Source of the DNA: Lachnospiraceae bacterium 10-1
GTDB taxonomy: Bacteria; Bacillota; Clostridia; Lachnospirales; Lachnospiraceae
Length of the DNA: 64,000 bases
Direction: 5' to 3'
Assembly (NCBI GenBank): GCA_000403495.2
Contig: KE159818.1
Coordinates: 1-64,000, forward strand
A program made the translations under genes and the position numbers. Below the pieces are notes generated by a model. The model did no database searches. It saw only the letters and a list, made by a program, of their open reading frames with translations, and had not been told where the DNA came from. Shown one piece after another: positions 8,629-23,677 of the stretch (positions are counted from its first letter, which is position 1; every line of letters starts with the position of its first letter).

Positions 8629-9714
8629 CTACCTTTCATAATATTTTGAAACACATTCACAAGTATATAAAATCTGTTCATCCGCAAGCTTACAGGAGGA
8701 AGGAAGCCATAAACCTTTCTCTGCTACCATTTCTGTTACTGGAAAGCTCATATCATAATTATATGCAGGTTCTGCATGAAGTGCCGGATAAAAAGGTCTT
8801 GTTCCTATGCCTTTTTCTTTTAAATACGCCATTAACCCTTCCCTGTCTTCACACAAAATATCAAAAAACCAAGGTGCATTTTGTTCGTAGTCAGTTGGTA
8901 TCAGCTCAATGCCATTAATCCCTTCCAATTTCTTTTGGTAAAGTATGCCCATCTCTTTCTTTCTGGCAACCCTGTCTGAAAGTTTTTTCATTTGTTCAAT
9001 GCCAATAACTGCCTGAACATCCGTAAATTTAAAATTCCATCCCTTAGTTAAATAGTGGTCACTTCCTCCGCCAGCTCTACCAAAATCTCTTATATATTTT
9101 ATTTTTTCATATAAATCTTTATTGTTGGTAATTAATGCGCCTCCCTGCCCCGTCGTTATTATTTTGGGTGCGCTAAAAGAAAAGCTACCAATGTCGCCGT
9201 ATGTCCCTATATGTTTTCCATTATATGTACTTCCTAAAGACTGTGCGGCATCTTCGATTAAATAAATACCCTTTTCTTTACAGAATTTCACAAATTCATG
9301 TATATTTTCAGGGCATCTCCCATTGATACTTACAAGCATTACCGCACGTGTTTTATCTGTAATTGTCTCACGCATGCAATCAAAGTCCATGCACAAATTA
9401 TCCTTGGAAATATCTACAAAAACCGCCTTAGCACCTATCAGTTCTGCAGCATTAGGCGTTGCCACCATCGTATAGTCAGGAACAATAACTTCATCTCCAA
9501 CGGTCACTCCACATGCCATAAGCGCTACTGCTAATGATATGGTTCCATTACACACCACTGAGCAAAACTCCGCCCCAGTGTATTTTGCTATCATCTGCTC
9601 AAATTCTCTTGTTTTTTTAAACTCTGTTACCCAGCCGCCAGAATTCATATATTCATATAGTGCATCTCTTTCCTTTTCATCAAAAAAAGGTTCCATTTGA
9701 TTTATAAAGTCCAT
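8629..9714 (-). CDS. DegT/DnrJ/EryC1/StrS sugar aminotransferase
   Basis: A PLP-dependent NDP-keto-sugar aminotransferase of 361 residues. Seen are NGTISLAVALMACGV, VIVPDYTMVATPNA, LIEDAAQSLGSTYNGK (Asp155 pairs with the PLP ring nitrogen) and SFSAPKIITTGQGGAL with the Schiff-base Lys184. It resembles perosamine synthetase-type enzymes making 4-amino sugars. No matching 4,6-dehydratase is found nearby, so the keto substrate must come from elsewhere. AAAGGAG precedes the ATG, and the gene overlaps the upstream 769-codon gene by 13 bases. Confidence 0.88.
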   Translation of the reverse strand: MDFINQMEPFFDEKERDALYEYMNSGGWVTEFKKTREFEQMIAKYTGAEFCSVVCNGTISLAVALMACGVTVGDEVIVPDYTMVATPNAAELIGAKAVFVDISKDNLCMDFDCMRETITDKTRAVMLVSINGRCPENIHEFVKFCKEKGIYLIEDAAQSLGSTYNGKHIGTYGDIGSFSFSAPKIITTGQGGALITNNKDLYEKIKYIRDFGRAGGGSDHYLTKGWNFKFTDVQAVIGIEQMKKLSDRVARKKEMGILYQKKLEGINGIELIPTDYEQNAPWFFDILCEDREGLMAYLKEKGIGTRPFYPALHAEPAYNYDMSFPVTEMVAEKGLWLPSSCKLADEQILYTCECVSKYYER

Positions 9715-12011
9715 AGTTTTGCTCCTTTCAGCAATGTAAATTCCTCTCCAGGTTTTTCTTTTAAATACTCAAGCAATATTTGCGGGTGCATAAATTTCAG
9801 ATCACTAAACACGAAGTGATAATCCATATTTTCTATGATATCATCATCTATAATATCATACTCATCTTTTTTATGCATCTCCACAACATCTGAAACAATT
9901 ACCAGGCCAGTGCCATATATATTGCGCAAATCACTTGTCATAATAATATCTATATCATCAAATTCTTTTGATTTTCGCAATCCCAATACCTGTAAAACTG
10001 CTCCGCTTACAATGCATACCTTTTCCCTTGGAATATTATTCCTTAATAAAGCTTTTTTCAAATTATTCAAATTATCTAAAAATTTCTCATCTTCAATATG
10101 TACATTAAGTTTCTGGTATTCCGCCGTATTCCTTGATAAATATTCACAAGCAGGAAGTTTCTCTAACTTTTCTTTTGGTATATCTTCTTTAAGGGGATAA
10201 ATCCGATCCGGCTCAATAGGAACAATAATCTGCTCTTCTTTTACACCCATTTCACATAGCTGCCTTTTTATGATTTCAGCCGCTTTAAAAACTCCTATTG
10301 CAATATAATCAAAATTTTCACATAAAATTTTGTTTGGCTGTATAATTTTCTTTCCCTTGCAATAATTCCCCCATTTGTCACTGCTATTGTCAGCAAACGC
10401 AATCACTTCATTTCCTTCTCCTATAAACTTTTGCATTGCCTTAATTCCAACACCACCACATCCAAATATTATTATACTCTTCGCCAGTTTTTCCCTTATA
10501 TAAACCTGAACCATTTTGCTCCTGTCTCTGCAATAGATCTTACTCAAAGTATTTACACATGTATAACCAAACTCTTCCAAAAAATTTAAGATTTCTTTCT
10601 TTGCGTCAATGCAGATAATACTTTTTATTCTACTTTTTTCAATTAATTTTTTATTCTGAAAACTATGATCAAGTATCAATACATTATAATTTTGAAAGCT
10701 CTGACCATCTGTTTCTTTCACATTCTGATAAAACAACTTGTCCAGCAAAATAGTAAATTTATTGCCTTCCCGTTCTACTCTGCTTACATTAAATCCACAC
10801 GCACTCAAATATCTGCTGCATGCTCCTTCATCTTCCAAATCGCACAAAATAAAATCGTGTTCCCTAGCCTGTTTCAATATTTCCCGATCTGTAAGATTAT
10901 ATCTATTTACACTTCTTTTTGCTTGAGAAAAAGCATTATATATCAAATACTCCGAAATTGGAAAAAGCACCAATTGATTATAATCCACATTTTCTGCTAC
11001 AATGTCTTTAAAATATGGATGGGGAACTGGTGCAGTCGTCTTTATCACATGTTCTTTTTCCATATAATCTTTAATCAATGAAAAAATCTCTTTATTGATC
11101 CAATGTTCGTAATCCTCCACTTGTAGCCTAACTGGAATATGTCTATATCCTTTCGCTACTAAAAATACTACTCTATTCCGCCCACTTTGCACCATATAGA
11201 ATTTACTTTTATCACCAGCTTCTACCAAAGGTGCATTTCGCAAAAAAAAATCAAAATCATAATCCGAAATTTCCTGCATATGAGCAAAGGCTTCCCACCT
11301 CGATTCAACCCAACTAGCCTTTAACTCTTCTGTAATCTCTATCTGATTTGAATATGCCCATTCTGATGCATATCTATAAAAATCATCCAGAACATCTCTT
11401 TCTTTTCTGTTTACATTCCCAAGAAACAACCTATATAAATTAACCAACGGGAAAAAAGCTGCCATGCTCAAGTCTTCATACACATCCGCTTTTTTATAAT
11501 TAAATATTAATTCCAATGGCATCCAAGTAAGCACTTCATTCTCTGCATTCTGTGAAATTATAAGACTATCTTTATATTGCATCTTATAATTTAAGTTAAC
11601 CTTTGCCAACACTTGTTTTTTGGGAAAATCTATATCTACTAAAAAAACATCATGAGCCATGCTGATTTTTTCCAATTCATTATCCGAATACCCTTTTAAA
11701 ATAGGCAATGGCTTGTATATGCATTGATCAAACCCCATTGCTGCAAGTTCATGCGCAATATCCGTATGTTCAAATACGTTTTTAGTAGTTAATATAATAA
11801 CAATATTTTCCGCTTCCGGTAATAGTTCCTTTAACGTATTTAAATCCCATACTTTTTCCCCACGGACATCGCCTAGCGCAGCAGCTCTTTTATCTATAAA
11901 ACCTTTTAAACAACCTTTCTCCTTTAATACCTTAATGAGTTTTAGTCCGCCACCGCCAGCACCATAAATTAAATATTTTTTTTCTTTATTAAGCCAAAAA
12001 CCTTTTTTCAT
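9702..12011 (-). CDS. Multidomain protein: two Rossmann modules, ParB-like motif, nucleotidyltransferase-like C-terminus
   Basis: I do not recognise this 769-residue architecture. Residues about 11-100 form a Rossmann module (KKYLIYGAGGGGLKLIKVLK, then FIDKR). About 255-305 show SGRNRVVFLVAKGYRHIPV and DYEHW, followed by PVPHPYF near 328-334; this ParB/sulfiredoxin-like block is shared with the next gene (12035-13492). About 385-420 is faintly methyltransferase-like. About 511-605 is a second Rossmann module (SIIIFGCGGVGIKAM, FADNSSDKWG). The last 130 residues contain VSGAVLQVLGLRKSKEFDDI and DIIM, suggesting a nucleotidyltransferase fold. Function is unknown; it probably prepares an unusual nucleotide-linked or carrier-linked building block. 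Confidence 0.6.
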   Translation of the reverse strand: MKKGFWLNKEKKYLIYGAGGGGLKLIKVLKEKGCLKGFIDKRAAALGDVRGEKVWDLNTLKELLPEAENIVIILTTKNVFEHTDIAHELAAMGFDQCIYKPLPILKGYSDNELEKISMAHDVFLVDIDFPKKQVLAKVNLNYKMQYKDSLIISQNAENEVLTWMPLELIFNYKKADVYEDLSMAAFFPLVNLYRLFLGNVNRKERDVLDDFYRYASEWAYSNQIEITEELKASWVESRWEAFAHMQEISDYDFDFFLRNAPLVEAGDKSKFYMVQSGRNRVVFLVAKGYRHIPVRLQVEDYEHWINKEIFSLIKDYMEKEHVIKTTAPVPHPYFKDIVAENVDYNQLVLFPISEYLIYNAFSQAKRSVNRYNLTDREILKQAREHDFILCDLEDEGACSRYLSACGFNVSRVEREGNKFTILLDKLFYQNVKETDGQSFQNYNVLILDHSFQNKKLIEKSRIKSIICIDAKKEILNFLEEFGYTCVNTLSKIYCRDRSKMVQVYIREKLAKSIIIFGCGGVGIKAMQKFIGEGNEVIAFADNSSDKWGNYCKGKKIIQPNKILCENFDYIAIGVFKAAEIIKRQLCEMGVKEEQIIVPIEPDRIYPLKEDIPKEKLEKLPACEYLSRNTAEYQKLNVHIEDEKFLDNLNNLKKALLRNNIPREKVCIVSGAVLQVLGLRKSKEFDDIDIIMTSDLRNIYGTGLVIVSDVVEMHKKDEYDIIDDDIIENMDYHFVFSDLKFMHPQILLEYLKEKPGEEFTLLKGAKLWTL

Positions 12012-12034
12012 TTCCCCTGCCTATCAACTTTAAT

Positions 12035-13492
12035 TTATACTTCAAAAACACCAACTTCCAACATTTTTCCTTGAAACACCTTTCTTTGTAAAACCGTATA
12101 TTGACTCATTTTTGTATTCTTTAATATCTTTTCCACAAAAGTCTCATTTTCTACCCAAAACTCAGAAAACAGTTTTCCAGTAAATCTCTCCAAACAGTTT
12201 GCTTCCAGCAAAGTTAGCGTATTCAACATTCCAAATACAATATCTGCCTTTTCACAAGCTCCTCTTAAAACAGCTGTTTCATCTATTATTTCTATATCTT
12301 GTATATGTAGCAAGCTAAATATTTTTTCTGCTAAGCCAAGCGTTACTCTCTCGTCACTATAAAATTTAACACTTTCTGCACACATTCTTTTAACCACACG
12401 TGCAAAATATCCTTCATACTGACTTGCATCAACTACATTCATGTTTTCCAGCCTAACAGGACCTAAATATTTTAAAATATAACCTAAAACCGTATTTCCC
12501 CATTCTTCACGCAAATATGGAAAATTTATGAAATTAGGATGCGGAACCGGCACATAAGTATTTTTAATTTCATTCTCATTAATATACCTTATCGTATCAA
12601 TTAGGCAGTCCTTGTTTTCCCATGTCCTATAATCCTCTTCACTTACTTTTACAGGATATGAAACATAACCTTGATGCTGTAAAAAAATTGTACGATGATT
12701 ACCACCTACGATATTAAAATATCCCTTTTCATTCCACATGATTTCAGGCGCTGCTTCCAGAAAATATTCAAGTCCATTCATCAGCTCCTTCTTTAATATT
12801 GAAAACAGCTTTTCTCTATCTTCGATTATCGATAAAGCCTTTTTTGAATTCGGCTCTATCCCAAATACCGAAAAATAAGCATCACATTCGTCTCTTGTTC
12901 CATCTAAATAGTCAAACAAATTGTGATACCAATAATAACTGTTTAAATTTACATCAACCCCTGCATTTATTGTATTAACCTTAGAAATATTTCCCTGCCA
13001 TCGTCCTTTATCTTCTGAATACAATATTTCCTGACCAATCCACACCAGTTTTTTTTCTTCTTCCTGACGAATTACTACATTATCATCCCATTCATTTTTT
13101 CTATAGAAATAATAATCTTTAACTTCATTACCAACATCTAGTCCACATAAAGCTCTATTATATAAATTAGTCAATCTAATCTTTTCTGAATGAGCTATTA
13201 CATGCCTCATAGGCAAAAAAATTATCCTTTTGAAACCTAATGAATATAATTCTTCTGCGACCTCATAATGCTCCATACCTGCATTTAAGCATACTATAAC
13301 AAAGGATTCTGTTTTGCATGTTTTAGTTAATTGGATAGAATCAGGAAAAAGTATCGGAATACCTTCCCAGCTTTCTCCATCCTTAGCTCGTTTATCCAAA
13401 ATTGCAACAACACTTATATTATTTATTTTTAAACGAGAAAATACATTTTTCCCCAACTCTCCAGCGCCATACAAAATATAATTATTACTCAC
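12035..13492 (-). CDS. Rossmann/ParB-like domain protein, paralogue of the preceding large protein
   Basis: This 485-residue protein begins with NYILYGAGELGKNVFSRL, a Rossmann module with ILDKR and a trailing GFKRIIFLP. At 261-290 it has IVGGNHRTIFLQHQGY and YPVKVSEEDYRTW, matching the ParB/sulfiredoxin-like block of the 9702-12011 protein, with the same downstream VPVPHPNF (about 314-321). Residues about 351-365 (MNVVDASQYEGYFARVV) look like a degenerate methyltransferase motif I. The start is GTG with AGGGAG upstream. The gene lies between the free carrier protein gene and its larger paralogue, so a role in processing the carrier-bound group is plausible but unproven. Confidence 0.6.
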   Translation of the reverse strand: MSNNYILYGAGELGKNVFSRLKINNISVVAILDKRAKDGESWEGIPILFPDSIQLTKTCKTESFVIVCLNAGMEHYEVAEELYSLGFKRIIFLPMRHVIAHSEKIRLTNLYNRALCGLDVGNEVKDYYFYRKNEWDDNVVIRQEEEKKLVWIGQEILYSEDKGRWQGNISKVNTINAGVDVNLNSYYWYHNLFDYLDGTRDECDAYFSVFGIEPNSKKALSIIEDREKLFSILKKELMNGLEYFLEAAPEIMWNEKGYFNIVGGNHRTIFLQHQGYVSYPVKVSEEDYRTWENKDCLIDTIRYINENEIKNTYVPVPHPNFINFPYLREEWGNTVLGYILKYLGPVRLENMNVVDASQYEGYFARVVKRMCAESVKFYSDERVTLGLAEKIFSLLHIQDIEIIDETAVLRGACEKADIVFGMLNTLTLLEANCLERFTGKLFSEFWVENETFVEKILKNTKMSQYTVLQRKVFQGKMLEVGVFEV

Positions 13493-13527
13493 TATATATA
13501 CTCCCTATAGTCCTCACCTTAATAACT

Positions 13528-13764
13528 TCATTTTTCAGAATCACATTTTTGTAGCATTTCGTTAATAAACATTATTGTCTTAAAGTTCTCTGGTAAAACC
13601 AATTTCTCATCTACATAGATTCCAAATCTATCCTCTAATTGGGTGACTATATAAATAATTGAAAGAGAATCCAATATTTCAGACTCAATTAATTCCGTAT
13701 TTTCATCTATTTCAATGTAAGGATTAATTTCTTTTAATATTTCTATAATTTCTTTAATATACAT
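13528..13764 (-). CDS. Stand-alone acyl/aminoacyl carrier protein
   Basis: A 78-residue acidic helical protein with the phosphopantetheine attachment motif LDSLSI; Ser33 in D-S-L is the expected site, and EDRFGI follows as in DltC and ACP proteins. The start at 13764 is set by CAAGGAG before the ATG; a longer in-frame reading to 13797 is less likely. An adenylation enzyme gene lies two genes upstream and is its probable loading partner. Together they resemble the DltA/DltC pair, but the amino acid or acyl group is unknown. Confidence 0.88.
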   Translation of the reverse strand: MYIKEIIEILKEINPYIEIDENTELIESEILDSLSIIYIVTQLEDRFGIYVDEKLVLPENFKTIMFINEMLQKCDSEK

Positions 13765-13786
13765 TTTTTCTCCTTGCTTTTCATAT

Positions 13787-14950
13787 TTAAATAGCATACA
13801 TTATTGTTTTTGAATCTCCAAATATATCTTTTTGTCTCAAATAAAATGAATAATCAGTGCGGACAGTATTCAAAAAAAATATAACTTCTATCATGTTTTC
13901 TGGTTTTACTCCATGTTCCATAATAATTACAGGCTTATATTTTTCAATTATTTTTTTGCTTCCCTTTATTATCTGGAAATCAGCAGCTAAAGCGTTGATT
14001 TTCATAATGGTTGGATTATTTCCGGCCAGCAAATTATCAAGTGCTTCTACTTGTATCTGCTCTTCCCCATATGTCTTTCCCTTCTTCTCCATAACCAGCT
14101 TCGTACAATTATCTATGGCATTATCTATATTTCTGAATAAATTAGGGCTATCATAATTAATTTCACTATTATCTGTGATAGAGTAAAAAGTCAATTTACT
14201 CTTTTCTGACCACAATGCCTGATTAAAAAGTGTAACATCATTTATACGTCCATATTTTATAAAATTACATAAAGAAACATAATTTCCTTTATCTGCTTCA
14301 AAGCCATATATATGTTTATATTTTCCTCCACAATATTCTAAAAATTTTAATATTGTATCACCAGTATAGGCTCCTACATCAACATAAACTGCATCTGTTT
14401 GATCTCCAATAACAACTTCGTCAAAAAATGTATTCCCACTAGTCATCTTATATAAATCAAGCATGTCTCCCGTAATTTTATAATTCAAATTCAATACAAA
14501 TAACTTTCGTGATATGTCGTCAGCAAGTTTATTGTAAACAATTTGATAATTATTAAAATCATTATCTATATTTTTTGATTGTAACAGCAGATTATCTACT
14601 TTAAAAGGATTACAAAACTGAAAAATATTATTTTTTTCTCCTTTATCGCACATCTGTTGATATGTTTCTGTCGCATTGTGAATTGACATTGTTAATAAAA
14701 TAGTATATTCTTCCAACTCCGTTTTCACTTTTTCATAACTGACAATCTCAAACGATTCTCCATTAAATTCCGTCGTTTTTCCCCAAAGTTCCGGATTATT
14801 ATCGCAAATCACAGTTGGCCTAATATCTATGTTATTTAGAAGTACAAGTGCCTGCCGGAGTTTTGCGCCCGCACCAAAACATATAATATTTTTGCATTTT
14901 CTTATATTATCAAAATATTCTTCTGAATTAATATATTCAAATTGCGGCAT
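13787..14950 (-). CDS. FkbM family methyltransferase with N-terminal Rossmann module
   Basis: The N-terminal 110 residues hold KNIICFGAGAKLRQAL, VICDNNPELWGK, the nucleotide-binding module repeated in this region. From about residue 175 comes an FkbM-type O-methyltransferase: AVYVDVGAYTGDTILKFLEY (motif I), IYGFEADKGNYVSLC, VTLFNQALWSEKSKL, VEALDNLL and IIMEHGVKPENMIEV. The normal MKIDVEGAE motif reads MKINALAAD, so the usual Asp and Glu of this motif are lost and activity is uncertain. The ATG at 14950 overlaps the TGA of the adenylation gene (TGATG), implying coupled translation; a GTG one codon earlier also exists. Confidence 0.82.
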   Translation of the reverse strand: MPQFEYINSEEYFDNIRKCKNIICFGAGAKLRQALVLLNNIDIRPTVICDNNPELWGKTTEFNGESFEIVSYEKVKTELEEYTILLTMSIHNATETYQQMCDKGEKNNIFQFCNPFKVDNLLLQSKNIDNDFNNYQIVYNKLADDISRKLFVLNLNYKITGDMLDLYKMTSGNTFFDEVVIGDQTDAVYVDVGAYTGDTILKFLEYCGGKYKHIYGFEADKGNYVSLCNFIKYGRINDVTLFNQALWSEKSKLTFYSITDNSEINYDSPNLFRNIDNAIDNCTKLVMEKKGKTYGEEQIQVEALDNLLAGNNPTIMKINALAADFQIIKGSKKIIEKYKPVIIMEHGVKPENMIEVIFFLNTVRTDYSFYLRQKDIFGDSKTIMYAI

Positions 14951-16452
14951 CACATCAGCTCCTTTAATTTTACTCTGTCAATTTTCCCATTAATGTTTAA
15001 TGGAAATTTTTCCATTCTATGTATCACTCCAGGCATCATATATTTAGGTACTTTCTTCATCATCTGCGTATAAATCTCTTTTTCTGTTAAATTCTCACCT
15101 CCAACATAGAATAAAACTATTTTCTTCTGTAAGTCATCATACAATGCACAGCATTGATAAACCTCATCTATAGAAGACGCTGCAGTTTCTATTTCACCTA
15201 ATTCTATTCTGTGCCCCTGATGCTTAATTTGAAAATCTTTTCTGCATACATAAATTAATTCGCCTAATTCATTGTACCTAACCAAATCACCTGTTTTATA
15301 AATTGTGTCATAAAAGCACTTATTTAATGGATTTTGAACAAAAACATTATCCGTTTTTTCAAAATCCTTATAGTACCCCAAAGACAAACAGCTTCCACGT
15401 ACACATAACTCACCAATCTCTCCCTCTTTTACTAATGCATTTTCTTCATTTAAAACAAGTATCTGAGTGTTTTTACATGCTTTGCCAATAGGTAGCGGTT
15501 CGTCATCCTCAAATTCTCGATTCACAATATAATATGCACAAACATCAGTAATTTCAGTAGGTCCGTATAGATTAGCATACAATAAATTTGGATAAAATTT
15601 TCTCCAAATATTAAGCTGTTTATTTGGCATTACCTCTCCACAAAACAATACTTTCTCTAAATATAACAGTTTTTCCCTTTCTAATACTCCTGAATTAGCA
15701 ACACCTATTAATGCAGAGGGTACCCAAAAAATCGTATTAATTTTATATTCATTAAGAAATATACATAGTTTATTTGGAAATGCAAAAAATTTTTCCGGAA
15801 TGATAACCATCGTAGATGCATTTTTTAAGGTAGAATAGATATCTAAAATAGAATTGTCAAAGTAAAATGGGGCTTGCTCCCCAAAAATCGTTTTATCATC
15901 AAACTCAAACTTGCCATACAGCCATTCTATATAATCGATAATACTCCTATGATTAATTGCTACTCCTTTGGGAATCCCTGTAGAGCCTGATGTAAACAAA
16001 ACATACACAGGATCTACATCCAATACTTTATTTAGACGCTGTATTAATTCCTTTTCGTTAAAAACTCTCTCTTTGCTATCTTCATAATTAATATTTTTCC
16101 ATCTTTCCAAGTCATTAATATGTTCACCTTGATTAATTATTACAATTGGTTCTAGTACATCTAAAATTCTTTCAATTCTTTCTTTTGGAGATTTTTTATC
16201 AATTGGAACATAAAAATTGCCACTATATAAAATCGCCATAAAAGCTATAATACTATCAACACTTTTATCCATGTATACAGCTATTGGCTTATTATATGCC
16301 TCACCACATTCTTCTAGTATGCAGCTTGCTAATTGCATTGCACGCACATTAATTTCCATAAATGTCATACTTTTGTTCTCATCAATAAATGCCGCTTTAT
16401 CCGGATGCTCACTTGCTGATTTTCTTAAATATTCCAACACATTCGTTATCAT
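14950..16452 (-). CDS. AMP-forming adenylation enzyme (DltA/NRPS A-domain-like)
   Basis: A free-standing 500-residue adenylation protein. Core motifs are VYVLFTSGSTGIPKG (A3, about 149-163), NLYGPTEITD (A5), GELCVRGSCLSLGYY and YKTGDLVRY (A7), FQIKHQGHRIELGEIE (A8) and NINGKIDRVKL with the catalytic lysine near 492 (A10). It should activate an amino or carboxylic acid as an adenylate and load it on the carrier protein encoded at 13528-13764. CAGGAG precedes the ATG. The length and lack of condensation domains match DltA-type enzymes rather than modular peptide synthetases. The substrate cannot be read with confidence. Confidence 0.9.
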   Translation of the reverse strand: MITNVLEYLRKSASEHPDKAAFIDENKSMTFMEINVRAMQLASCILEECGEAYNKPIAVYMDKSVDSIIAFMAILYSGNFYVPIDKKSPKERIERILDVLEPIVIINQGEHINDLERWKNINYEDSKERVFNEKELIQRLNKVLDVDPVYVLFTSGSTGIPKGVAINHRSIIDYIEWLYGKFEFDDKTIFGEQAPFYFDNSILDIYSTLKNASTMVIIPEKFFAFPNKLCIFLNEYKINTIFWVPSALIGVANSGVLEREKLLYLEKVLFCGEVMPNKQLNIWRKFYPNLLYANLYGPTEITDVCAYYIVNREFEDDEPLPIGKACKNTQILVLNEENALVKEGEIGELCVRGSCLSLGYYKDFEKTDNVFVQNPLNKCFYDTIYKTGDLVRYNELGELIYVCRKDFQIKHQGHRIELGEIETAASSIDEVYQCCALYDDLQKKIVLFYVGGENLTEKEIYTQMMKKVPKYMMPGVIHRMEKFPLNINGKIDRVKLKELM

Positions 16453-16457
16453 TTCTA

Positions 16458-17663
16458 CTATCTCCTGTTTAACTCTTCAATTAGTTTTTCAACAACTAAT
16501 TTTCTGCCTTCGTAATTCGCTGTTTCATCAATCGTATGTAAATCTGCAAATTGATAATCTTTCAAAATATAACTTAAATCTAATATCGATACACCATATT
16601 CTTCTGCAATTTCTTTTAAATAAGCGACATTTTTATCATACGCTTCAGAAAATTTTTCTCCAAACAAACTTACCGCATACATATAATTTGCCGGAGGAAT
16701 GAATACAATTGGTTTTACACTTCTCTCTTTACACAGTTTTAACAGTTTTTCCAAATATACTATGCCTTCATTATCTCTTTTTAATGTATACATATAATTC
16801 ATTTTTATAACAATTCTATCATTTCGTTCTTTAGCCCCTGTATTAAAATTTGAATCAGATGACATGAAATAATCCATTTTAAAATTTGAAAACCGCTCAT
16901 TAGTTACATAAACATATTCCAACAGTTCTTCTTCCCTATTTCCAACCGCATCACTAATTAATTGAATTAATTTGGCATGTTGCGAACGCGGTAATAAGTG
17001 CTGCTTACCTGTAAATGTTTCAAAATTAGCCATTATCAAAAGCTTTTCAGGGGTGCTTACATTATTAATATGGGCTTTAAATATATTATAAAATGCCCTC
17101 ATACCCATTGCATGTATGGCAAGTACTTTTATGTGTTCTTTGCCCACCTTCTCTTCCAACATTTCTCCTATATTCATGTAATTTTCATCTTTAATAGAAA
17201 TATCTGTTAATCCACAATCTCCCATTGCAATCACATTAAAATTTCCTTTTTGAGAAAAAGTCTTGATATATTCTTCATTTAAATGATTCTCTATAAAAAA
17301 ATAATTTTCATTTTTAATAAATCCGCTTTTTTCTAACTGCTCCATCAAACTGTAGCCATTTTCAACTGAAATAATTACATTAATTTCCTCTTTCATTCTT
17401 TCAACATCTTTATACGAAATAATAGGAAATTCATTTATATAGCCACCAACTTTAGCATCATTATTATCTGTAAATACAATATCTTTATATCCCTTCTCAG
17501 ACAGCCAAATAGAAAATGAAGTGCCTCGAATACCTGCACCAAAAATAACAATCTTTCCCCTTTTTAATTTTTCCTTATTTTCTTCTATACATTTACAAAG
17601 AGCATTATAATCATATTTTCCTACCGTTGTAACCGGCCATGCAAAATTGTTTACTTCATTCAT
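16458..17663 (-). CDS. Rossmann module plus SGNH-hydrolase-like protein (GDC in place of GDS)
   Basis: Residues about 34-125 are the shared nucleotide-binding module (GKIVIFGAGIRGTSFSI, FTDNNDAKVGG). The C-terminal two thirds start with NVIAMGDCGLTD (about 143-154) and end with FADLHTIDETANYEGRKL. A GDx block I and a DxxH block V are the hallmarks of SGNH/GDSL hydrolases; here the expected serine is cysteine 150. No signal peptide or membrane segment is visible, so it is cytoplasmic. The ATG at 17663 follows AAGGAGG; an earlier in-frame ATG is ignored. It may release or transfer the acyl group made by the adjacent adenylation enzyme (inference). Confidence 0.65.
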   Translation of the reverse strand: MNEVNNFAWPVTTVGKYDYNALCKCIEENKEKLKRGKIVIFGAGIRGTSFSIWLSEKGYKDIVFTDNNDAKVGGYINEFPIISYKDVERMKEEINVIISVENGYSLMEQLEKSGFIKNENYFFIENHLNEEYIKTFSQKGNFNVIAMGDCGLTDISIKDENYMNIGEMLEEKVGKEHIKVLAIHAMGMRAFYNIFKAHINNVSTPEKLLIMANFETFTGKQHLLPRSQHAKLIQLISDAVGNREEELLEYVYVTNERFSNFKMDYFMSSDSNFNTGAKERNDRIVIKMNYMYTLKRDNEGIVYLEKLLKLCKERSVKPIVFIPPANYMYAVSLFGEKFSEAYDKNVAYLKEIAEEYGVSILDLSYILKDYQFADLHTIDETANYEGRKLVVEKLIEELNRR

Positions 17664-17728
17664 ATTAATCCTCCTTGATAGGTCCATCCCATTATAATGC
17701 TCTATAACTCATGCTCAAATAAAATATT

Positions 17729-18400
17729 CTATTTCTTGGTTGCACATATTGCATACCAGACTTCATTAACATCTAATTTTTTACTTTTCCATTCCTCATT
17801 TGAAGATAAATTTTTCCAATCCATAGCATATGTTCGGCTAAACTTTTCAAAATAGTCAATAGCCAATCCACACTCCGAAATGGCATCTACCATTTCATCT
17901 TGAGAATAAAAGACATATCCTGGTGCATCATATAAAGGATTGTCTATTACTCCGCTTCCCCCCCCACGTTTAACACCTGATGTTTTCCATGAGTCTTCAT
18001 CACTCTTTAGGCTCATAATTACTTTTCCACCGCCTTTTAACATTGTGACAATCTTTTTTAGCCTGTCTGTACAATCTTCTGGCTTATCATTATAGGCATA
18101 TAGAAAATTCCAAGCAACTATTAAGTCGTAAGCATTTGTTTCATTCATGTTCAAAAAATCAGCACACTCTACCTGCAATTTCTTATTTAAATATTCATTC
18201 AACAACATTTTTGTATCAACAATATTTTGTTCCTCAATATCAACCGCTTTTACATGCATTCCCATCTCCAAACATACTTTTGCATGTCTTCCACAGCCGC
18301 ATCCAATATCCAAAGCCTGCATTTTTTCATTTTCCTTCTCGTTGGAGAAATATCTCATTATTCCTCTTACCACTTGATCATCTGCATACCTTTTAAACAT
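17729..18400 (-). CDS. SAM-dependent methyltransferase (class I)
   Basis: Motif I is ALDIGCGCGRHAKVCLEMG, followed by VKAVDIEEQNI (acidic loop), CADFLNMN, YDLIVAWNFLYAY (motif IV) and LKGGGKVIMSLKS. This is a complete small methyltransferase of 223 residues. CGGAGG lies seven bases before the ATG at 18400; an upstream ATG at 18418 overlaps that ribosome binding site and is unlikely. The codons at 17958-17965 form a run of eight G (RGGG), the longest in the window. The substrate is unknown; carrier-bound or sugar substrates are plausible given the neighbours. Confidence 0.85.
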   Translation of the reverse strand: MFKRYADDQVVRGIMRYFSNEKENEKMQALDIGCGCGRHAKVCLEMGMHVKAVDIEEQNIVDTKMLLNEYLNKKLQVECADFLNMNETNAYDLIVAWNFLYAYNDKPEDCTDRLKKIVTMLKGGGKVIMSLKSDEDSWKTSGVKRGGGSGVIDNPLYDAPGYVFYSQDEMVDAISECGLAIDYFEKFSRTYAMDWKNLSSNEEWKSKKLDVNEVWYAICATKK

Positions 18401-18434
18401 AATATACCTCCGTTCCATTGCTTCTCATCTACCT

Positions 18435-18817
18435 TTAATTACAAGCATAGATTACTGTTTCTGTTTGATTGTCACTGTAATGCTTTAGAAATAACTCATA
18501 ATTCTCATTAAATTGTAATATTAACTTTGGGATTTTGTCAATACTGTTTCCCAAGTGTAATTATATAAATATATGTGGTCTGACACTCGTCTAATAAATG
18601 CTTAACACTTATAACCTGTAAACCAGCTATTTCATGTCCAATTTATCTCCATTATACCACAGAAGGCTTCCGGAAAAATCCCATATCCTCTTAATTGATC
18701 CACAATAAACTGGCTTGTACATCCAGCGCCAAATAAAATTAATGGGCAATCTAACTTTTTCAGTTTCTCAATTTCCTCTTTCCACTCTTCGCTAAGTAAT
18801 TCAATTTTATCTAGCAT
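18435..18817 (-). pseudogene. Remnant of an FkbM-type methyltransferase gene (ends retained, centre deleted)
   Basis: From 18817 a 61-codon frame gives CPLILFGAGCTSQFIVDQL and PEAFC, the start of the Rossmann module found on the FkbM protein at 13787-14950, then stops at 18632. In another frame, ending at 18435, the text reads KIPKLILQFNENYELFLKHY then SDNQTETVIYACN, the typical FkbM C-terminus. The middle (about 250 codons, including the SAM site) is gone. The remnant starts inside the upstream radical SAM gene by 11 bases, so it was once part of the operon. Confidence 0.75.
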
Positions 18818-19832
18818 TGTGTATCTTTCCTCCTTCTTCTGTTTTCAACCTTAAAAATATTTCTCTTCTATAGTCATCAATCATATCTTCGTCAGAATAG
18901 ATAGAATTTTGCTTTATATAGCAATCATCGCATATTTGGGGATTATTCAATTCACACTGACGTTTTAAGAGTTCCATTCTTTGACTTCCATTCCATATTT
19001 CCCTCAAACTTTTTTCATTTATATTTCCTAATATTTCTTCTCTTAACAGTTGTGTGCAGGGGTAAACATCACCATTCGTTGCAATTACAATCGTATGAAA
19101 GATAAGGGGACAGCACTGCTGCATGGCAAAAGTGTCTCCATACTTATTTGATATAGAATTAGTATCTTTCTCTTCCCCTTTCCAAATCGGAACTTCCTGC
19201 TCAACAAATGCCCGATCACAAATTGGCGTAAACAAATTATAAAACTTCTCCTCTTCCCCATCATCTAACGCACAATTCATAATTTTCACATAAACCTGCG
19301 TATGCTTTTTTCTTTTATACAGCTTTGACAAATTAGCATATAACTGCTCAAAGTCAACAGCTGCCCTGCAAATTTTTGCATACTTTTCCGTCGATAGACC
19401 TTGCAATGAAACTACTATTCTGTCAATGTCTGCTTCTGCCAGTTCCGTTATATAATCCTCGTCCAGCAATGAGGCATTTGTATGAATTGAAATTCTGCTT
19501 TTAATTCCATTCTCTTTTATATATCGTACCATTTGGGGTATTTTTCTATTACATAAAGGCTCTCCGTGATTTGATAATGAAATCTGCCTTACTTCCTCAG
19601 GAAATTCCTTAATTTGTGCCACTGCCTTCTCAAAAATTTCCCAAGTTATTAAATCATTTCTTTTTGCATATCCCCAATTCTCTTTGTTCTTTGTATTACT
19701 TCTATAACAATATGAACATTGAAAATTGCACCTTTCACTTGCATCTATAATTACAGTAAATGGTGTGCTTAATGGCAAAATCTCCCCAAGCTTCTGCCTA
19801 TTTTTATCAAATGATGGCATTACTTTTTCCAT
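18807..19832 (-). CDS. Radical SAM/SPASM protein
   Basis: CNFQCSYC near residues 34-41 is the C-x3-C-x2-C cluster motif, followed by ISLSNHGEPLCN (GGE-like region), RISIHTNASLLD and RIVVSLQG. The C-terminus holds ATNGDVYPCTQLL, LGNINEKSLREIWNG and QICDDC, the signature of a SPASM domain that binds auxiliary Fe-S clusters. The 341-residue size fits SPASM maturases and dehydrogenases. No small peptide substrate gene was found next to it, so a sugar or carrier-bound substrate is more likely here. It is followed by the FkbM remnant. Confidence 0.88.
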   Translation of the reverse strand: MEKVMPSFDKNRQKLGEILPLSTPFTVIIDASERCNFQCSYCYRSNTKNKENWGYAKRNDLITWEIFEKAVAQIKEFPEEVRQISLSNHGEPLCNRKIPQMVRYIKENGIKSRISIHTNASLLDEDYITELAEADIDRIVVSLQGLSTEKYAKICRAAVDFEQLYANLSKLYKRKKHTQVYVKIMNCALDDGEEEKFYNLFTPICDRAFVEQEVPIWKGEEKDTNSISNKYGDTFAMQQCCPLIFHTIVIATNGDVYPCTQLLREEILGNINEKSLREIWNGSQRMELLKRQCELNNPQICDDCYIKQNSIYSDEDMIDDYRREIFLRLKTEEGGKIHNAR

Positions 19833-19866: not shown

Positions 19867-20841
19867 CTACGCAGTTACTATTTTTTTTAACTTTTCTTTT
19901 TCATCTTGCTTTAAGTATATACTACTTATCAATTCATCCTTGTTGTTTTTTAAATCCCAAAGCATTTCATCAAGTTCTCTTTCACAATCAGACAAAGAAT
20001 TGGTAATGATTTTATCGCACATTGACAATTTAAAAGATAACTCTGTATATCTGAAAAAAGCTTCATGCTCTGGAAATTTATCTATCAAATAACAAGTTCT
20101 TTCCTTGTACAATTGCAGATATTCATTTAACAAATCTTGTGTCCATTTACTAAAATCACTTGTAAAACTTGAATTATTCTCATTATGTCGGCGAATATGA
20201 TAATTGGGCAATCCATGTATAATTACCTTTTTCGCACTTGCAAAATATTTATATGCTGTATGCGCATCTTCTGACTTACAATCTTCAACAAAGGGATAAT
20301 TTAGTAATATATCTTTTCGAAATAGCTTTGTGGGCATGCCTGCCCGGATCTTTTTCCTTTCAAGAAGTAACAAAACAGCTTCCTCGCCTGTTAATTCCAG
20401 CCTCTCATTAAATACACATTGCGGCGAGATAACATCTCCCCGAAATTCATCACAGCCACACATTGCAATATCTGCATCTGTGTCTGTAATAAGTTTATAC
20501 AAAAATTCAAGATAATTCTTTTCAATTCTATCATCATCATCTACATACGTAACAAATTCTCCATTGGCATACCTTAATCCAATGTTCCTTCCTTTGCCTA
20601 TAGATGCAGCTTGTCTAAGTGTTACAATTTTAATTCTATTATCTAGCTGTGCATATTTGCTTAGTATCAAGTCAGTCCCATCTGCACTTCCATTATTGAC
20701 AATTATATATTCAAAGTTTGTATAGCTTTGGTTTAACACATCTTCTATCATTTGCTCAACGAAATACTTACGGTTATGTGTTAACATAATCATTGAGATC
20801 AAGATTTTTCCCCCTTTGTTAAATTCTATCATTGCCATCAA
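19867..20841 (-). CDS. Glycosyltransferase family 2
   Basis: A GT-A transferase of about 320 residues: ISMIMLTHNRKYFVEQMIED at the N-terminus, YIIVNNGSADGTDLIL, GKGRNIGLRYANGEFVTYVD and DDDRIEKNYLEF (DDD metal site), then MPTKLFRKDILLNYPFVED. The start is uncertain: TTG, ATG and another ATG lie within four codons near 20841, and none has an ideal ribosome binding site. It probably adds a sugar to the growing lipid-linked glycan in the cytoplasm. Confidence 0.87.
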   Translation of the reverse strand: MMAMIEFNKGGKILISMIMLTHNRKYFVEQMIEDVLNQSYTNFEYIIVNNGSADGTDLILSKYAQLDNRIKIVTLRQAASIGKGRNIGLRYANGEFVTYVDDDDRIEKNYLEFLYKLITDTDADIAMCGCDEFRGDVISPQCVFNERLELTGEEAVLLLLERKKIRAGMPTKLFRKDILLNYPFVEDCKSEDAHTAYKYFASAKKVIIHGLPNYHIRRHNENNSSFTSDFSKWTQDLLNEYLQLYKERTCYLIDKFPEHEAFFRYTELSFKLSMCDKIITNSLSDCERELDEMLWDLKNNKDELISSIYLKQDEKEKLKKIVTA

Positions 20842-20891: not shown

Positions 20892-21890
20892 TTATTCACG
20901 ATTATCCTCCATAAAAATAATCCGGCTGCCTTCATTTTCAAAATTAAATTCCACTTTTTTATAATCTTTCATTTCTTCTTCTACCGAATCTCTTTTCCCA
21001 GTTGGTACATATAACAATAAAAAGCCACCACCGCCTGCCCCTAATATTTTCCCGCCTGATGCGCCTGCCCGTTTTGCTTTTTCGTACATTTCATTAATCT
21101 CTGTATTTGTTATTTTCGTGGCAAGACTTTTTTTCTTTTCCCATGCCTCATTTAGCAATTCTCCCCACTTTTCAATTTCGCCACACTGTAATGCCTGTAC
21201 TGATATATCTACCATTTCAAGCATTTGGTTTAAAACAGATTCTTTATCCACAATTTTCTCTTTCTGCTCAGAAAGTATTTCAGAAGAAATTCTTGTCAAT
21301 CCAGTGTAGTACAGCATTAAATGATCTTTTAAATTTCTGATATTCTCTAATGGAACTCCCAACGGAGTTGCCGTAACTTTTCCATCTGCCCAAAATTTAT
21401 AGACACGAATGCCTCCATAGGAACATGCATATTGGTCTTGAATTCCGATAGGATTTCCCAAGCGGTTAATTTCTATTTCACAGGCCATTCTGGCCAATTT
21501 CTCTGGTGATGCATATTCACCTTTATAGGCATATAATGCATTAAGTACACCTACTGCCAAGGCACTTGAGGACGCTAGTCCCACACCAGCGGAGCTTAAT
21601 GGAATATCTGCTGAATAGACAATATCTATCCCGTTTTCGATTCCTGTTATTTTCAATGCTTCCCTGATAATATTATGTTTTATTTCATCCACTGAATTTA
21701 CAAACTCATTCTTCGTATAGCAAACACGTATCTTACTGTCAAAGCGCTTACACACCATAATATAAACATACATATTCAATGCGGTACTTATCACAGAGCC
21801 ATACCCATATTTACTATTTTCATAATAATCTTTAAAATCTGTGCCTCCTCCAAAAAAAGAAGCTCTAAGCGGTGTTTTCGAAATAATCAT
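20892..21890 (-). CDS. hddA: D-glycero-alpha-D-manno-heptose-7-phosphate kinase
   Basis: A GHMP-family kinase of 332 residues: KTPLRASFFGGGTDFKDYY at the start, PLSSAGVGLASSSALAVGVL (ATP loop, about 108-127), GIQDQYACSYGGI and KILGAGGGGFLLLY near the C-terminus. The pattern matches HddA, which phosphorylates D-glycero-D-manno-heptose 7-phosphate at C1. The ATG overlaps the stop of the preceding gene (ATGA), and that gene and gmhA encode the other pathway steps. The three genes should produce GDP-D-glycero-alpha-D-manno-heptose. Confidence 0.9.
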   Translation of the reverse strand: MIISKTPLRASFFGGGTDFKDYYENSKYGYGSVISTALNMYVYIMVCKRFDSKIRVCYTKNEFVNSVDEIKHNIIREALKITGIENGIDIVYSADIPLSSAGVGLASSSALAVGVLNALYAYKGEYASPEKLARMACEIEINRLGNPIGIQDQYACSYGGIRVYKFWADGKVTATPLGVPLENIRNLKDHLMLYYTGLTRISSEILSEQKEKIVDKESVLNQMLEMVDISVQALQCGEIEKWGELLNEAWEKKKSLATKITNTEINEMYEKAKRAGASGGKILGAGGGGFLLLYVPTGKRDSVEEEMKDYKKVEFNFENEGSRIIFMEDNRE

Positions 21891-23083
21891 TCTTTTTTAA
21901 CCAGTTCCTTTACAATTTCCAATATGCTTCTATCTTCTGTTACCATATAGGTTATGCAGCCTGCTGCTTCCCCAGCTTCTATATCTCTTTCATCATCTCC
22001 TATCAAAATGCACTTCGTAAGATTTAAATTGTATTCTTTTTGGGCCTGATACAGCATTCCGGGTTTGGGCTTACGGCACTCACATCCTTCATCCCAATTA
22101 TGAGGGCAAAAATAGATTTTATCAATGTGAGCACCTTCCTCCTCTAATTCCCGTTCCATTTTATCATGAATTTTATTAAGTTTTTCTAACGACAATTTTC
22201 CACGTGCAATTCCAGGCTGGTTCGTTACCATAAGTACCCGGTAACCATTTTTATTTAATAATCCAATCGCTTCTTTAGCCCCCTTCAGCCAAACAAACTG
22301 TTGTTCATTTTCAACATAACATGCTTTAGGCGGTCTTTCATTGATTGTTCCATCTCTGTCAATGAATACCGTAGGTATATCCTCAAAAAATTTCTTTGTT
22401 AACTCAATCCTTTCCCATGAGCCAACAGAATAATAACGATGTTTTGTCACTGTTGCAAACATTTGGTTTTGTCTCAATGCATAAGGATAAGCAACGCTTT
22501 CAAAATTTTGATTTTCACATGTAACCATATCCAGTATTTTCTTTTTTATAATTGCATATCCAATATCAACTCCCTGCAGCCTAGGCATAGCTCTTTTTTT
22601 GTCATAAGCTAATACTTTACCGTTTTCCTCCAGCAACATATTATTTTTTGTGTAATTGTCTTTATTGTCATATACGCTTACTTGTATCAGGGCATTGTTG
22701 TTATAAAAATCATCTTCCAATTTCCTATAATCTATCGGACAATAATTATCACAGTACATTAACAGAAAATCATCATTCAGCCTTTCTTTTGCATGAAAAA
22801 TTCTATCTCCTGTATTAAATTCTACTGGGGTTATGTCATAAGAAATAGAAACACCATAATCTTTTCCATTTTTTAAATATTCAGTTATCTTTTCCGGCAT
22901 GTAGCCCAATAACAGTAAAATATTATCTATGCCAAATTGTTTTACCTGTTCTATCAGATATCCTATAAATGGTTTTCCATTTACAGGATACATTGGCTTG
23001 GGATTGTTATCCGTAAAAGGCTGCAATCGTTTTCCCAATCCACCTGCCAATATCACAGCCTGTTTTATTTTATCTCTGTTCAT
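21887..23083 (-). CDS. Fusion: heptose-1-phosphate guanylyltransferase (HddC-like) and heptose-bisphosphate phosphatase (GmhB-like)
   Basis: Residues 1-230 are a sugar-phosphate nucleotidyltransferase: QAVILAGGLGKRLQPFTDN (8-26), MYPVNGKPFIGYLIEQ, FLLMYCDNYCPID and GVDIGYAII. Residues 235-398 are a HAD phosphatase: VFIDRDGTINERP (D242, D244), VTNQPGIARG, CPHNWDEGCECRKPKPGML with the zinc-binding Cys/His cluster of GmhB, and IGDDERDIEAG. One protein thus covers two steps, removal of the C7 phosphate and GMP transfer. GAGGGATGGG precedes the start. Assignment of GDP rather than ADP rests on the hddA neighbour. Confidence 0.88.
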   Translation of the reverse strand: MNRDKIKQAVILAGGLGKRLQPFTDNNPKPMYPVNGKPFIGYLIEQVKQFGIDNILLLLGYMPEKITEYLKNGKDYGVSISYDITPVEFNTGDRIFHAKERLNDDFLLMYCDNYCPIDYRKLEDDFYNNNALIQVSVYDNKDNYTKNNMLLEENGKVLAYDKKRAMPRLQGVDIGYAIIKKKILDMVTCENQNFESVAYPYALRQNQMFATVTKHRYYSVGSWERIELTKKFFEDIPTVFIDRDGTINERPPKACYVENEQQFVWLKGAKEAIGLLNKNGYRVLMVTNQPGIARGKLSLEKLNKIHDKMERELEEEGAHIDKIYFCPHNWDEGCECRKPKPGMLYQAQKEYNLNLTKCILIGDDERDIEAGEAAGCITYMVTEDRSILEIVKELVKKE

Positions 23084-23098
23084 TTCCCATCCCTCATT

Positions 23099-23677
23099 TT
23101 ATAACTTTGTGGCCACTCCATCCTCTTCAACAATATGATCCACAATTTGTTGCAGGATAATGGTGTGAATTGATTCTACAATGCCATAATGCTTCTTTGG
23201 CACATATATATTAATATCTCCCATTTTCCGAATACGGTTATTTTCGTCGAATCCAGTTAAGGTTATTACTTTCCCGTTGATTTTTCGAATCGCTTCAATC
23301 CCTTTGACAATATTCTCAGACTCACCAGAACTGCTTATTGCCACCAGCAATTCCCCTTCCTTCGCCATAAGCTCCAATTGTTTCGAAAAAACATACTCAT
23401 ATGATAAATCATTTGATATGCAGGTTAGTGTAGCCTGTTCATATAGACTGTGTGTCAGAATACCCCCGTTTTTAAAAAAATCTGCTGTCATATGCTGAGA
23501 AATTCCTGCGCTTCCGCCATTACCACAAAAGTACACATTTTTCTTGCTTTTTTTGTATTCTGCAAATACTTGGACAAGCTTACAAATGCCTTCTGTGTAG
23601 CCCAAATTTACTGCATTGGAAGTAATTATTTCTACATGATCAAGTGCTCTTTTTAATTCTTCAATATATAAGTTCAT
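23099..23677 (-). CDS. gmhA: Sedoheptulose-7-phosphate isomerase
   Basis: A 192-residue SIS-domain protein with VYFCGNGGSAGISQHMTADF (about 48-67), LVAISSSGESENIVKGI and VITLTGFDENNRI. GmhA converts sedoheptulose 7-phosphate to D-glycero-D-manno-heptose 7-phosphate, the first committed step of NDP-heptose synthesis. The next two genes encode the remaining steps, so the assignment is firm. AAAGGC lies before the ATG. Confidence 0.92.
   Translation of the reverse strand: MNLYIEELKRALDHVEIITSNAVNLGYTEGICKLVQVFAEYKKSKKNVYFCGNGGSAGISQHMTADFFKNGGILTHSLYEQATLTCISNDLSYEYVFSKQLELMAKEGELLVAISSSGESENIVKGIEAIRKINGKVITLTGFDENNRIRKMGDINIYVPKKHYGIVESIHTIILQQIVDHIVEEDGVATKL

Follow-up and report, generated by a model that had tools for sequence, protein, structure and literature searches.

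A recurrent gene set with a cysteine-bearing SGNH-fold protein may link carrier-bound amino acids to bacterial glycans without an MBOAT

What can a free-standing adenylation enzyme and a free carrier protein do inside a glycan locus that holds no intact MBOAT membrane acyltransferase? The question is raised by the first 64,000 nucleotides of contig KE159818.1 of Lachnospiraceae bacterium 10-1 (GenBank assembly GCA_000403495.2), a stretch that we call the window. An earlier note, made from the sequence alone, had described there five tightly spaced genes with overlaps, encoding an adenylation enzyme, a carrier, an SGNH-like protein with the motif GDC, an FkbM protein and a ParB-like protein, and had set this module apart from the Dlt pathway as a possible builder of an acyl or aminoacyl sugar. 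From gene content, alignments and structure models, we lean towards reading the module as an intracellular pathway that would decorate a glycan with an amino acid, an analogue of Dlt that does without an MBOAT.

The tight run is confirmed by coordinates and protein families: passing from the SGNH gene through the adenylation, FkbM and carrier genes to the ParB-like gene, the neighbours are separated by a gap of 5 nucleotides, an overlap of 4, an overlap of 11 and a gap of 35, respectively. The boundaries that had been given for the module (11990-17670) did not hold, since two genes of its core lie outside them. The core consists of the following genes:

19867-20841, minus strand: GT2 glycosyltransferase, core (Pfam Glycos_transf_2, E 2.6e-29), with homologues 37-46% identical to it in 9/9 further complete loci
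18807-19832, minus strand: radical S-adenosylmethionine (SAM)/SPASM protein, core (Pfam Radical_SAM, E 3.9e-20; SPASM, E 1.7e-12), with homologues in 9/9 further complete loci
16458-17687, minus strand: SGNH-fold protein of 409 amino acids with an N-terminal Rossmann domain and GDC replacing GDS, proposed to be a cytoplasmic aminoacyltransferase (AlphaFold2, Foldseek, alignment)
14950-16452, minus strand: free-standing amino-acid adenylation enzyme of 500 amino acids (NCBIfam TIGR01733 above its cut-off, DltA models below theirs)
13528-13797, minus strand: free carrier protein of 89 amino acids with the carrier Ser44 in DSL (Pfam PP-binding, 21.5 bits)

Does this set recur? A pattern-and-tblastn scan with the SGNH alignment over a GTDB-based collection of 84,980 species, one genome per species, gave seven loci: in Schwartzia succinivorans (L052; Selenomonadaceae, Negativicutes), a Lachnospiraceae bacterium (L053), Vallitalea (L054 and L056, the same contigs as L050 and L051), Marinisporobacter (L055), Clostridia RGIG9151 (L057) and a member of the Spirochaetaceae (L058). 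Genome searches added L138-L140, from three genomes of one second genus in the family of Schwartzia, which the pattern scan had missed, so that its count is a lower bound. Two incomplete loci were left uncounted: the Spirochaetaceae contig, which has the radical SAM gene and ends inside the SGNH gene, and L086, from the same genus as Schwartzia, in which GT2, radical SAM and a fragmented SGNH gene are followed by a second SGNH gene cut by the contig end. In each of the nine further complete loci (L052-L057 and L138-L140), as in the window, homologues of the GT2, radical SAM, SGNH, adenylation and carrier proteins occur together. The idea of the earlier note that the set would be found in other genomes was therefore borne out, and non-recurrence, its stated ground for refutation, did not apply; the membership that it listed was not upheld.

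The same nine loci contain no homologue of any of the seven MBOATs encoded in the window's own genome. Those seven all lie elsewhere in that genome, and the window's only match to them is a broken fragment at 637-1035, in agreement with what had been noted; the fragment lies near a transposase-like open reading frame (ORF) at 94-501. Related free adenylation enzymes (E 1e-90 or better; 37-52% identical to the module enzyme) were found in 79/391 genomes of the class, and we compared 20 of their neighbourhoods of 10-20 kb each, namely those of the 19 highest scores next to the window itself and one with a lower score. Sixteen have an MBOAT and a carrier, one has a carrier without an MBOAT (L125) and three have neither (L114, L117, L123), and within these 10-20 kb none of the 20 contains a homologue (E 1e-4) of the module's SGNH, radical SAM, FkbM or GT2 protein. 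The adenylation-carrier pair is thus akin to its counterparts in Dlt-like clusters of clostridia, and in the module it stands with different partners. A core set present in all nine further complete loci and in none of the 20 comparison loci is more than chance.

Which group would be loaded on the carrier? The adenylation enzyme matches Pfam AMP-binding (E 1.9e-63) and exceeds the cut-off of the NCBIfam amino-acid adenylation domain TIGR01733 (336.2 bits against 317.4), whereas it stays below that of both DltA models (323.9 bits against 476 and 305.1 against 559.85). Ten code positions were taken from alignments by reference to those of the phenylalanine domain of gramicidin synthetase. The predicted code reads DNLSLCLDVK in 8/10 module enzymes, DNLSMCMDVK in Marinisporobacter and DNSSLCFYAK in one Vallitalea enzyme, and its first Asp, which presumably binds the amino group of the amino acid, is kept in all ten. 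A solved DltA reads DLMSLCTV at the eight code positions that are visible, four of which differ from the module code. Among 21 comparison enzymes, five have DAKPAGLGMK or near it with P, four have S or T there, and the others vary; one adenylation enzyme of L116 reads DNFTVCLDVK. The simplest reading of these predicted codes is that the module enzymes share one conserved substrate that is not that of DltA. The earlier note had left an acyl and an aminoacyl group side by side; the adenylation model and the conserved Asp of the predicted amino pocket speak for the latter. In a tree of adenylation enzymes that left out L138-L140, the first seven module enzymes group with the two from L116 (96/96).

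The carrier passes Pfam PP-binding narrowly (21.5 bits against a cut-off of 20.8; its L138 homologue reaches 29.2), and a genome-wide search with the same model gave four other places and missed it. Under the DltC models it scores below both cut-offs (21.3 bits against 68 and 16.2 against 52.35). The carrier Ser is kept in all ten module carriers, and the position of the gene is conserved in the other loci as well; to judge from shorter homologues, the true start may be an internal Met at residue 12.

The enzyme that could act after loading is the SGNH-fold protein. Its AlphaFold2 model (predicted local distance difference test score, pLDDT, 84.2; predicted template-modelling score, pTM, 0.84) has an SGNH fold. 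Foldseek matched the model to sialic acid esterase (sialate O-acetylesterase), DltD, CgnD, platelet-activating factor (PAF) acetylhydrolase and TesA, with shorter alignments to VioB and Rex, at modest E values of 3e-4 to 4e-3 (VioB, 4e-3). Six PDB chains lie at E 0.001 or better, three of sialic acid esterase, two of DltD and one of CgnD, and in a viral structure library phage SGNH or GDSL-type proteins are among the best named matches. At the level of sequence, the protein scores below the DltD models of both Pfam (16.9 bits against 22.7) and NCBIfam (15.4 against 150). Its N-terminal domain matches PglD_N weakly (15.7 bits against a Pfam cut-off of 23.4), and sequence profiles of this domain weakly reach MccB, 3nkl, Rex and VioB, the last being a nucleotide-amino-sugar N-acetyltransferase.

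GDC occupies residues 156-158 of the window protein, and Cys158 replaces the nucleophile Ser of the GDS block in 13/13 SGNH sequences. His237 is likewise found in 13/13 and His230 in 12/13; both belong to one conserved loop, and the confidence of the model is low at residues 229-233 of it. All 12 full-length sequences have Asp387 and Glu388, and 9/12 have Asp382. A hydropathy scan of the 13 sequences found no strongly hydrophobic stretch: the 19-residue mean peaks at 1.89 across the set and at 1.1 in the protein of the window. The exported GDC proteins found in Dlt-like clusters, to which we return below, reach 1.8 to 2.6 at residues 6-10. Since the two ranges touch, the scan is a weak test of cellular location. 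The cysteine reported in the earlier note is thus invariant, and the cytoplasmic location also claimed there is suggested by the scan, with its maximum of 1.1. Each of the two Vallitalea loci has two tandem GDC-SGNH paralogues (L054:4821-7239; L056:9992-12422), the second copies being 35-36% identical to the window protein; perhaps these serve two transfer steps or form a heterodimer.

The surroundings of the module vary. The window's copy is part of a long glycan locus that also encodes an initiating sugar transferase, two ABC transporters and many glycosyltransferases. The module of L056 stands between FliW/flagellin and FliD, and that of L054 upstream of the start of FliD. Sugar-nucleotide genes are found beside the module in the window and in L052-L057; they are of heptose type in the window and Schwartzia, and in L054 and L055 a glucose-1-phosphate cytidylyltransferase scores above its cut-off. 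Schwartzia and the window have a longer block in common, consisting of the heptose-type sugar genes (58-63% identical), both ParB-like genes, the gene of a GT11 protein and two more genes, a pattern suggestive of transfer between classes.

From these data we infer a series of steps and their order, and with them the amino acid, the acceptor and the activity of the SGNH protein. The adenylation enzyme would activate one amino acid with ATP and link it through a thioester bond to the phosphopantetheine of the free carrier. Tailoring, either of the carrier-bound amino acid or of the sugar, could be the work of the radical SAM/SPASM protein and, in loci that have it, of FkbM. Cys158 of the GDC-SGNH protein would accept the aminoacyl group from the carrier, and the protein would pass it to a hydroxyl or amino group, either of a nucleotide sugar or of a sugar added by the module GT2. 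A bolder version, which we put forward tentatively and believe to have clearly less than an even chance, is that these SGNH proteins form a new class of intracellular glycan aminoacyltransferase, in which the SGNH fold has exchanged its Ser for Cys, lost the standard His and recruited His237 or His230. Such an enzyme would receive an amino acid modified on the carrier by the radical SAM protein and deliver it to a nucleotide sugar, and its genes would form a mobile cassette used for flagella in some bacteria and for other surface glycans elsewhere.

Several findings weigh against the proposed pathway. One concerns catalysis: at the expected position of the block-V His (five before G394, placed by eye), all 12 full-length SGNH sequences have Thr, Cys or Ala, the window protein alone having a His nearby, at 384, and with this His absent the protein could be inactive or no transferase. 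The N-terminal domain resembles Rex and other NAD-binding folds too, which keeps sugar-nucleotide binding tentative. Recurrence counts for less than nine independent lines, because the two Vallitalea loci are related, as are L138-L140. In 16% of 200 bootstrap trees a branch separates the module adenylation enzymes from the rest, so that the tree does not resolve them as one clade. Because the nearby sugar genes differ among loci, no single acceptor sugar can be named. Finally, the flagellin matches of the window's genome lie on other contigs; its flagellin-FliD locus is on one of these and contains an N-acetylneuraminate-synthase-type gene, with no module match among the ORFs listed, so that the flagellar link is not general.

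The catalytic objection leads to the most serious alternative, in which the SGNH protein is not the transferase. It could be an inactive scaffold or a hydrolase by which the amino acid is released or edited, and bringing the aminoacyl group to a glycan or another small molecule could fall to a different enzyme of the locus. Although the universal exchange of Ser for Cys and the substituted block-V position fit this alternative, Cys158, His237, Asp387 and Glu388 are strictly kept, unlike the residues of a decaying site, and we judge it unlikely. More doubtful still is that the amino acid, once modified on the carrier by the radical SAM protein, is released free as an unusual amino acid or put on a protein. 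The radical SAM gene is indeed as constant as the rest of the core, and the SPASM-family models that its product weakly resembles, all far below their cut-offs, are in many cases named peptide maturases; however, the equally constant GT2, the adjacent sugar-nucleotide genes and the flagellar position of two loci point to a glycan.

It is also conceivable that the genes encode an ordinary Dlt pathway with its membrane acyltransferase elsewhere in the genome. Seven MBOAT matches are available there, one beside another carrier-like gene, and both the adenylation enzyme and the carrier have relatives in clostridial adenylation-carrier-MBOAT clusters. We nevertheless reject this explanation and give it very little credence, because the DltA, DltC and DltD models all fall below curated cut-offs, as the earlier note's separation of the module from Dlt would have it, no MBOAT occurs in the module loci and the substrate code differs at half of the positions visible in DltA; in addition, the SGNH protein shows no hydrophobic anchor in the hydropathy scan and bears an N-terminal Rossmann domain. 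We see just as small a chance for plain fatty-acyl decoration, an idea prompted by the published carrier and AMP-ligase genes of flagellin islands in Aeromonas and Enterobacteriaceae (PMC7874193, PMC4875605). The module enzyme passes an amino-acid adenylation model and keeps the predicted amino-binding Asp in 10/10, which disfavours this option, and fatty-acid reductases and ketosynthases are absent from the Pfam names of the window genes, among which no specific search for them was made.

The pathway that we favour, amino-acid decoration of a glycan without an MBOAT, can be set beside several known systems. With Dlt and the clostridial adenylation-carrier-MBOAT clusters the module has in common a free adenylation enzyme, a free carrier and an SGNH-fold protein; it differs in having no MBOAT, an apparently unanchored Cys-SGNH protein without the block-V His, radical SAM and GT2 proteins as fixed partners, and another substrate code. 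It would thus work like Dlt up to the loaded carrier and then depart from it. In PatA/PatB-type MBOAT-SGNH polymer acyltransferases the SGNH protein is the final acyltransferase to the glycan, as we propose here, although these systems act on extracellular polymers with an MBOAT partner, and OatA-type SGNH domains use a Ser-His-Asp triad (PMC12148441). OctT, a mycobacterial sugar octanoyltransferase of the SGNH family, acylates a sugar from a thioester donor, but it retains Ser, His and Asp and uses acyl-CoA donors (PMC4555173). The Aeromonas and Enterobacteriaceae islands likewise place a carrier protein and an activating enzyme in a flagellin glycan locus, but they are described as being of fatty-acid type with acyl reductases, and the portions of the two papers at hand name no SGNH or radical SAM partner (PMC7874193, PMC4875605). 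The Rossmann domains of the SGNH and ParB-like proteins resemble those at the N-termini of the sugar N-acyltransferases PglD, NeuD and VioB. The catalytic part of these acyltransferases is a left-handed beta helix that uses acetyl-CoA, where the module protein has an SGNH fold.

Amino acids on flagellin glycans are themselves known. In Clostridioides difficile type B flagellin the terminal sugar is capped with taurine, alanine and glycine, and the genes proposed for this, unlike those of the module, encode an acyltransferase, an ATP-grasp ligase and a dehydrogenase/cyclodeaminase; the parts of these papers at hand name no carrier route (PMC5207245, PMC5207246), and PMC5207246 uses neither the term acyl carrier nor the term radical SAM. 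A search of the open-access literature by title and the start of the abstract found no description of the module's gene set; subscription papers and preprints lay outside this search. The module would probably be a new way of decorating bacterial surfaces. It would join amino-acid activation of a non-ribosomal style to the decoration of glycans and dispense with Dlt's membrane transfer step, by means of a candidate enzyme with an altered catalytic site, and would give amino acids a concrete, testable path to sugars of the bacterial surface. Radical SAM/SPASM proteins would also gain a possible new substrate, namely a carrier-bound amino acid.

The Dlt-like clusters provide observations of their own. 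In seven clostridial adenylation-carrier-MBOAT clusters (L111, L113, L118, L119, L120, L122 and L124), GDS is replaced by GDC (GDCEVY) in the DltD-like partner, the N-terminus of which is hydrophobic, and a Cys-SGNH protein may therefore exist as a second, exported variant of Dlt-like systems. We considered these proteins as close kin of the module SGNH protein and dropped the idea, since the profile match reaches a probability of 30 over 37 columns only and the six that were aligned keep a His after a conserved Asp; the shared Cys may thus be convergent. GDCFTY-type proteins in such clusters were also set aside as SGNH candidates, as by eye they resemble transglutaminases. The one comparison locus with a carrier and no MBOAT (L125:8777-11172) has its adenylation enzyme and carrier in a sugar locus, beside a hexapeptide protein with Pfam PglD_N, a DegT-type aminotransferase and a sugar-transferase-like protein, and may represent one more route that takes aminoacyl groups from carrier to sugar. 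A small carrier-like ORF is also found close to an MBOAT gene elsewhere in the window's genome (L128:9309-11560), in a region without an adenylation enzyme related to that of the window.

How common is the SGNH protein? In an even draw at the level of the order, matches covering the SGNH part were found in 3/392 genomes (the window's own, G205 and G228); at E 0.001, 34/392 genomes gave a match, the remainder being short N- or C-terminal ones. Within the genus such matches occur in 2/37 genomes (its own and a broken copy in G033; 8/37 at E 1e-10), and within the phylum in 2/398 (its own and G759, taken to be Schwartzia because its gene order equals that of L052; 4/398 at E 1e-10). The corresponding figures are 4/189 for the order of Schwartzia and 2/22 for the family of G228, and plasmids gave no match to the SGNH protein at E 1e-15.

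In reading order, the genes of the window run from GT2 through radical SAM/SPASM, a 61-codon FkbM relic, a class I methyltransferase, SGNH, the adenylation enzyme, FkbM and the carrier to the ParB-like gene and its longer homologue. Those outside the core, with the adjacent sugar-nucleotide genes, are:

20892-23677, minus strand: sugar-nucleotide genes resembling those of GDP-D-glycero-D-manno-heptose synthesis, HddA, HddC fused to GmhB, and GmhA (best equivalog-type NCBIfam matches, all below cut-offs)
18632-18817, minus strand: 61-codon ORF lying after the radical SAM gene and before the methyltransferase gene, probably what remains of the N-terminal part of a Rossmann-FkbM gene (matched by N-termini of FkbM-type proteins)
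17729-18418, minus strand: class I SAM-dependent methyltransferase, accessory, between core genes (Pfam Methyltransf_25, E 4.4e-10)
13787-14953, minus strand: Rossmann and FkbM-type methyltransferase of 388 amino acids with an altered motif (TIGR01444 above its cut-off)
12035-13492, minus strand: Rossmann and ParB/Srx-like protein of 485 amino acids, accessory (its profile matches 3nkl, Rex and PglD along the N-domain, and SbnI)
9702-12011, minus strand: second, longer ParB-like homologue, accessory, with an extra Rossmann domain and, by eye, a nucleotidyltransferase-like C-terminal part

None of the nine further complete loci encodes a homologue of the class I methyltransferase (E 1e-5). Radical SAM homologues from L052-L058 are 41-59% identical to the window protein, and those of L138-L140 are 50-51% identical to the L058 protein. 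Directly upstream of the radical SAM gene, longer FkbM-type genes are found in L054, L055 and L138-L140.

The changed motif that had been seen in the FkbM protein (TIGR01444, 53 bits against a cut-off of 37.7) was verified: the six module-type FkbM proteins have K[IL]NA..AD, and the second FkbM of L052 and the upstream one of L054 have K[LM]D[LI]EG.E. As fixed members of the module, however, neither FkbM nor the ParB-like protein stood up. The module-type FkbM occurs in 6/10 loci (the window, L052, where it is split over two reading frames, L053, L054, L055 and L057), and none is among the matches listed for L056. L138-L140 have one FkbM-type protein of another kind, a second GT2 and a protein of 291-293 amino acids, which has no Pfam match above cut-off in L138, the one of the three on which Pfam and NCBIfam were run.

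The ParB-like protein was rejected as a core member, being present in 2/10 module loci (the window and Schwartzia) and occurring in two 20 kb loci that have neither adenylation enzyme nor carrier (L018, which has a ParB-like pair, and L019). ParB is also the most weakly supported family label among the five genes: the protein has no Pfam match up to E 0.1, and of a profile built from four rows, positions 245-306 match SbnI, a serine kinase of ParB/Srx type, at E 0.018. Proteins with a ParB fold outside partition, SerK and SbnI among them, have been described (PMC12704722). The structure model of the window protein is poor (pLDDT 50.7), with fold matches of Rossmann and dehydrogenase types. Its longer homologue at 9702-12011 corresponds to two separate genes in L052, with identities of 31% and 48%.

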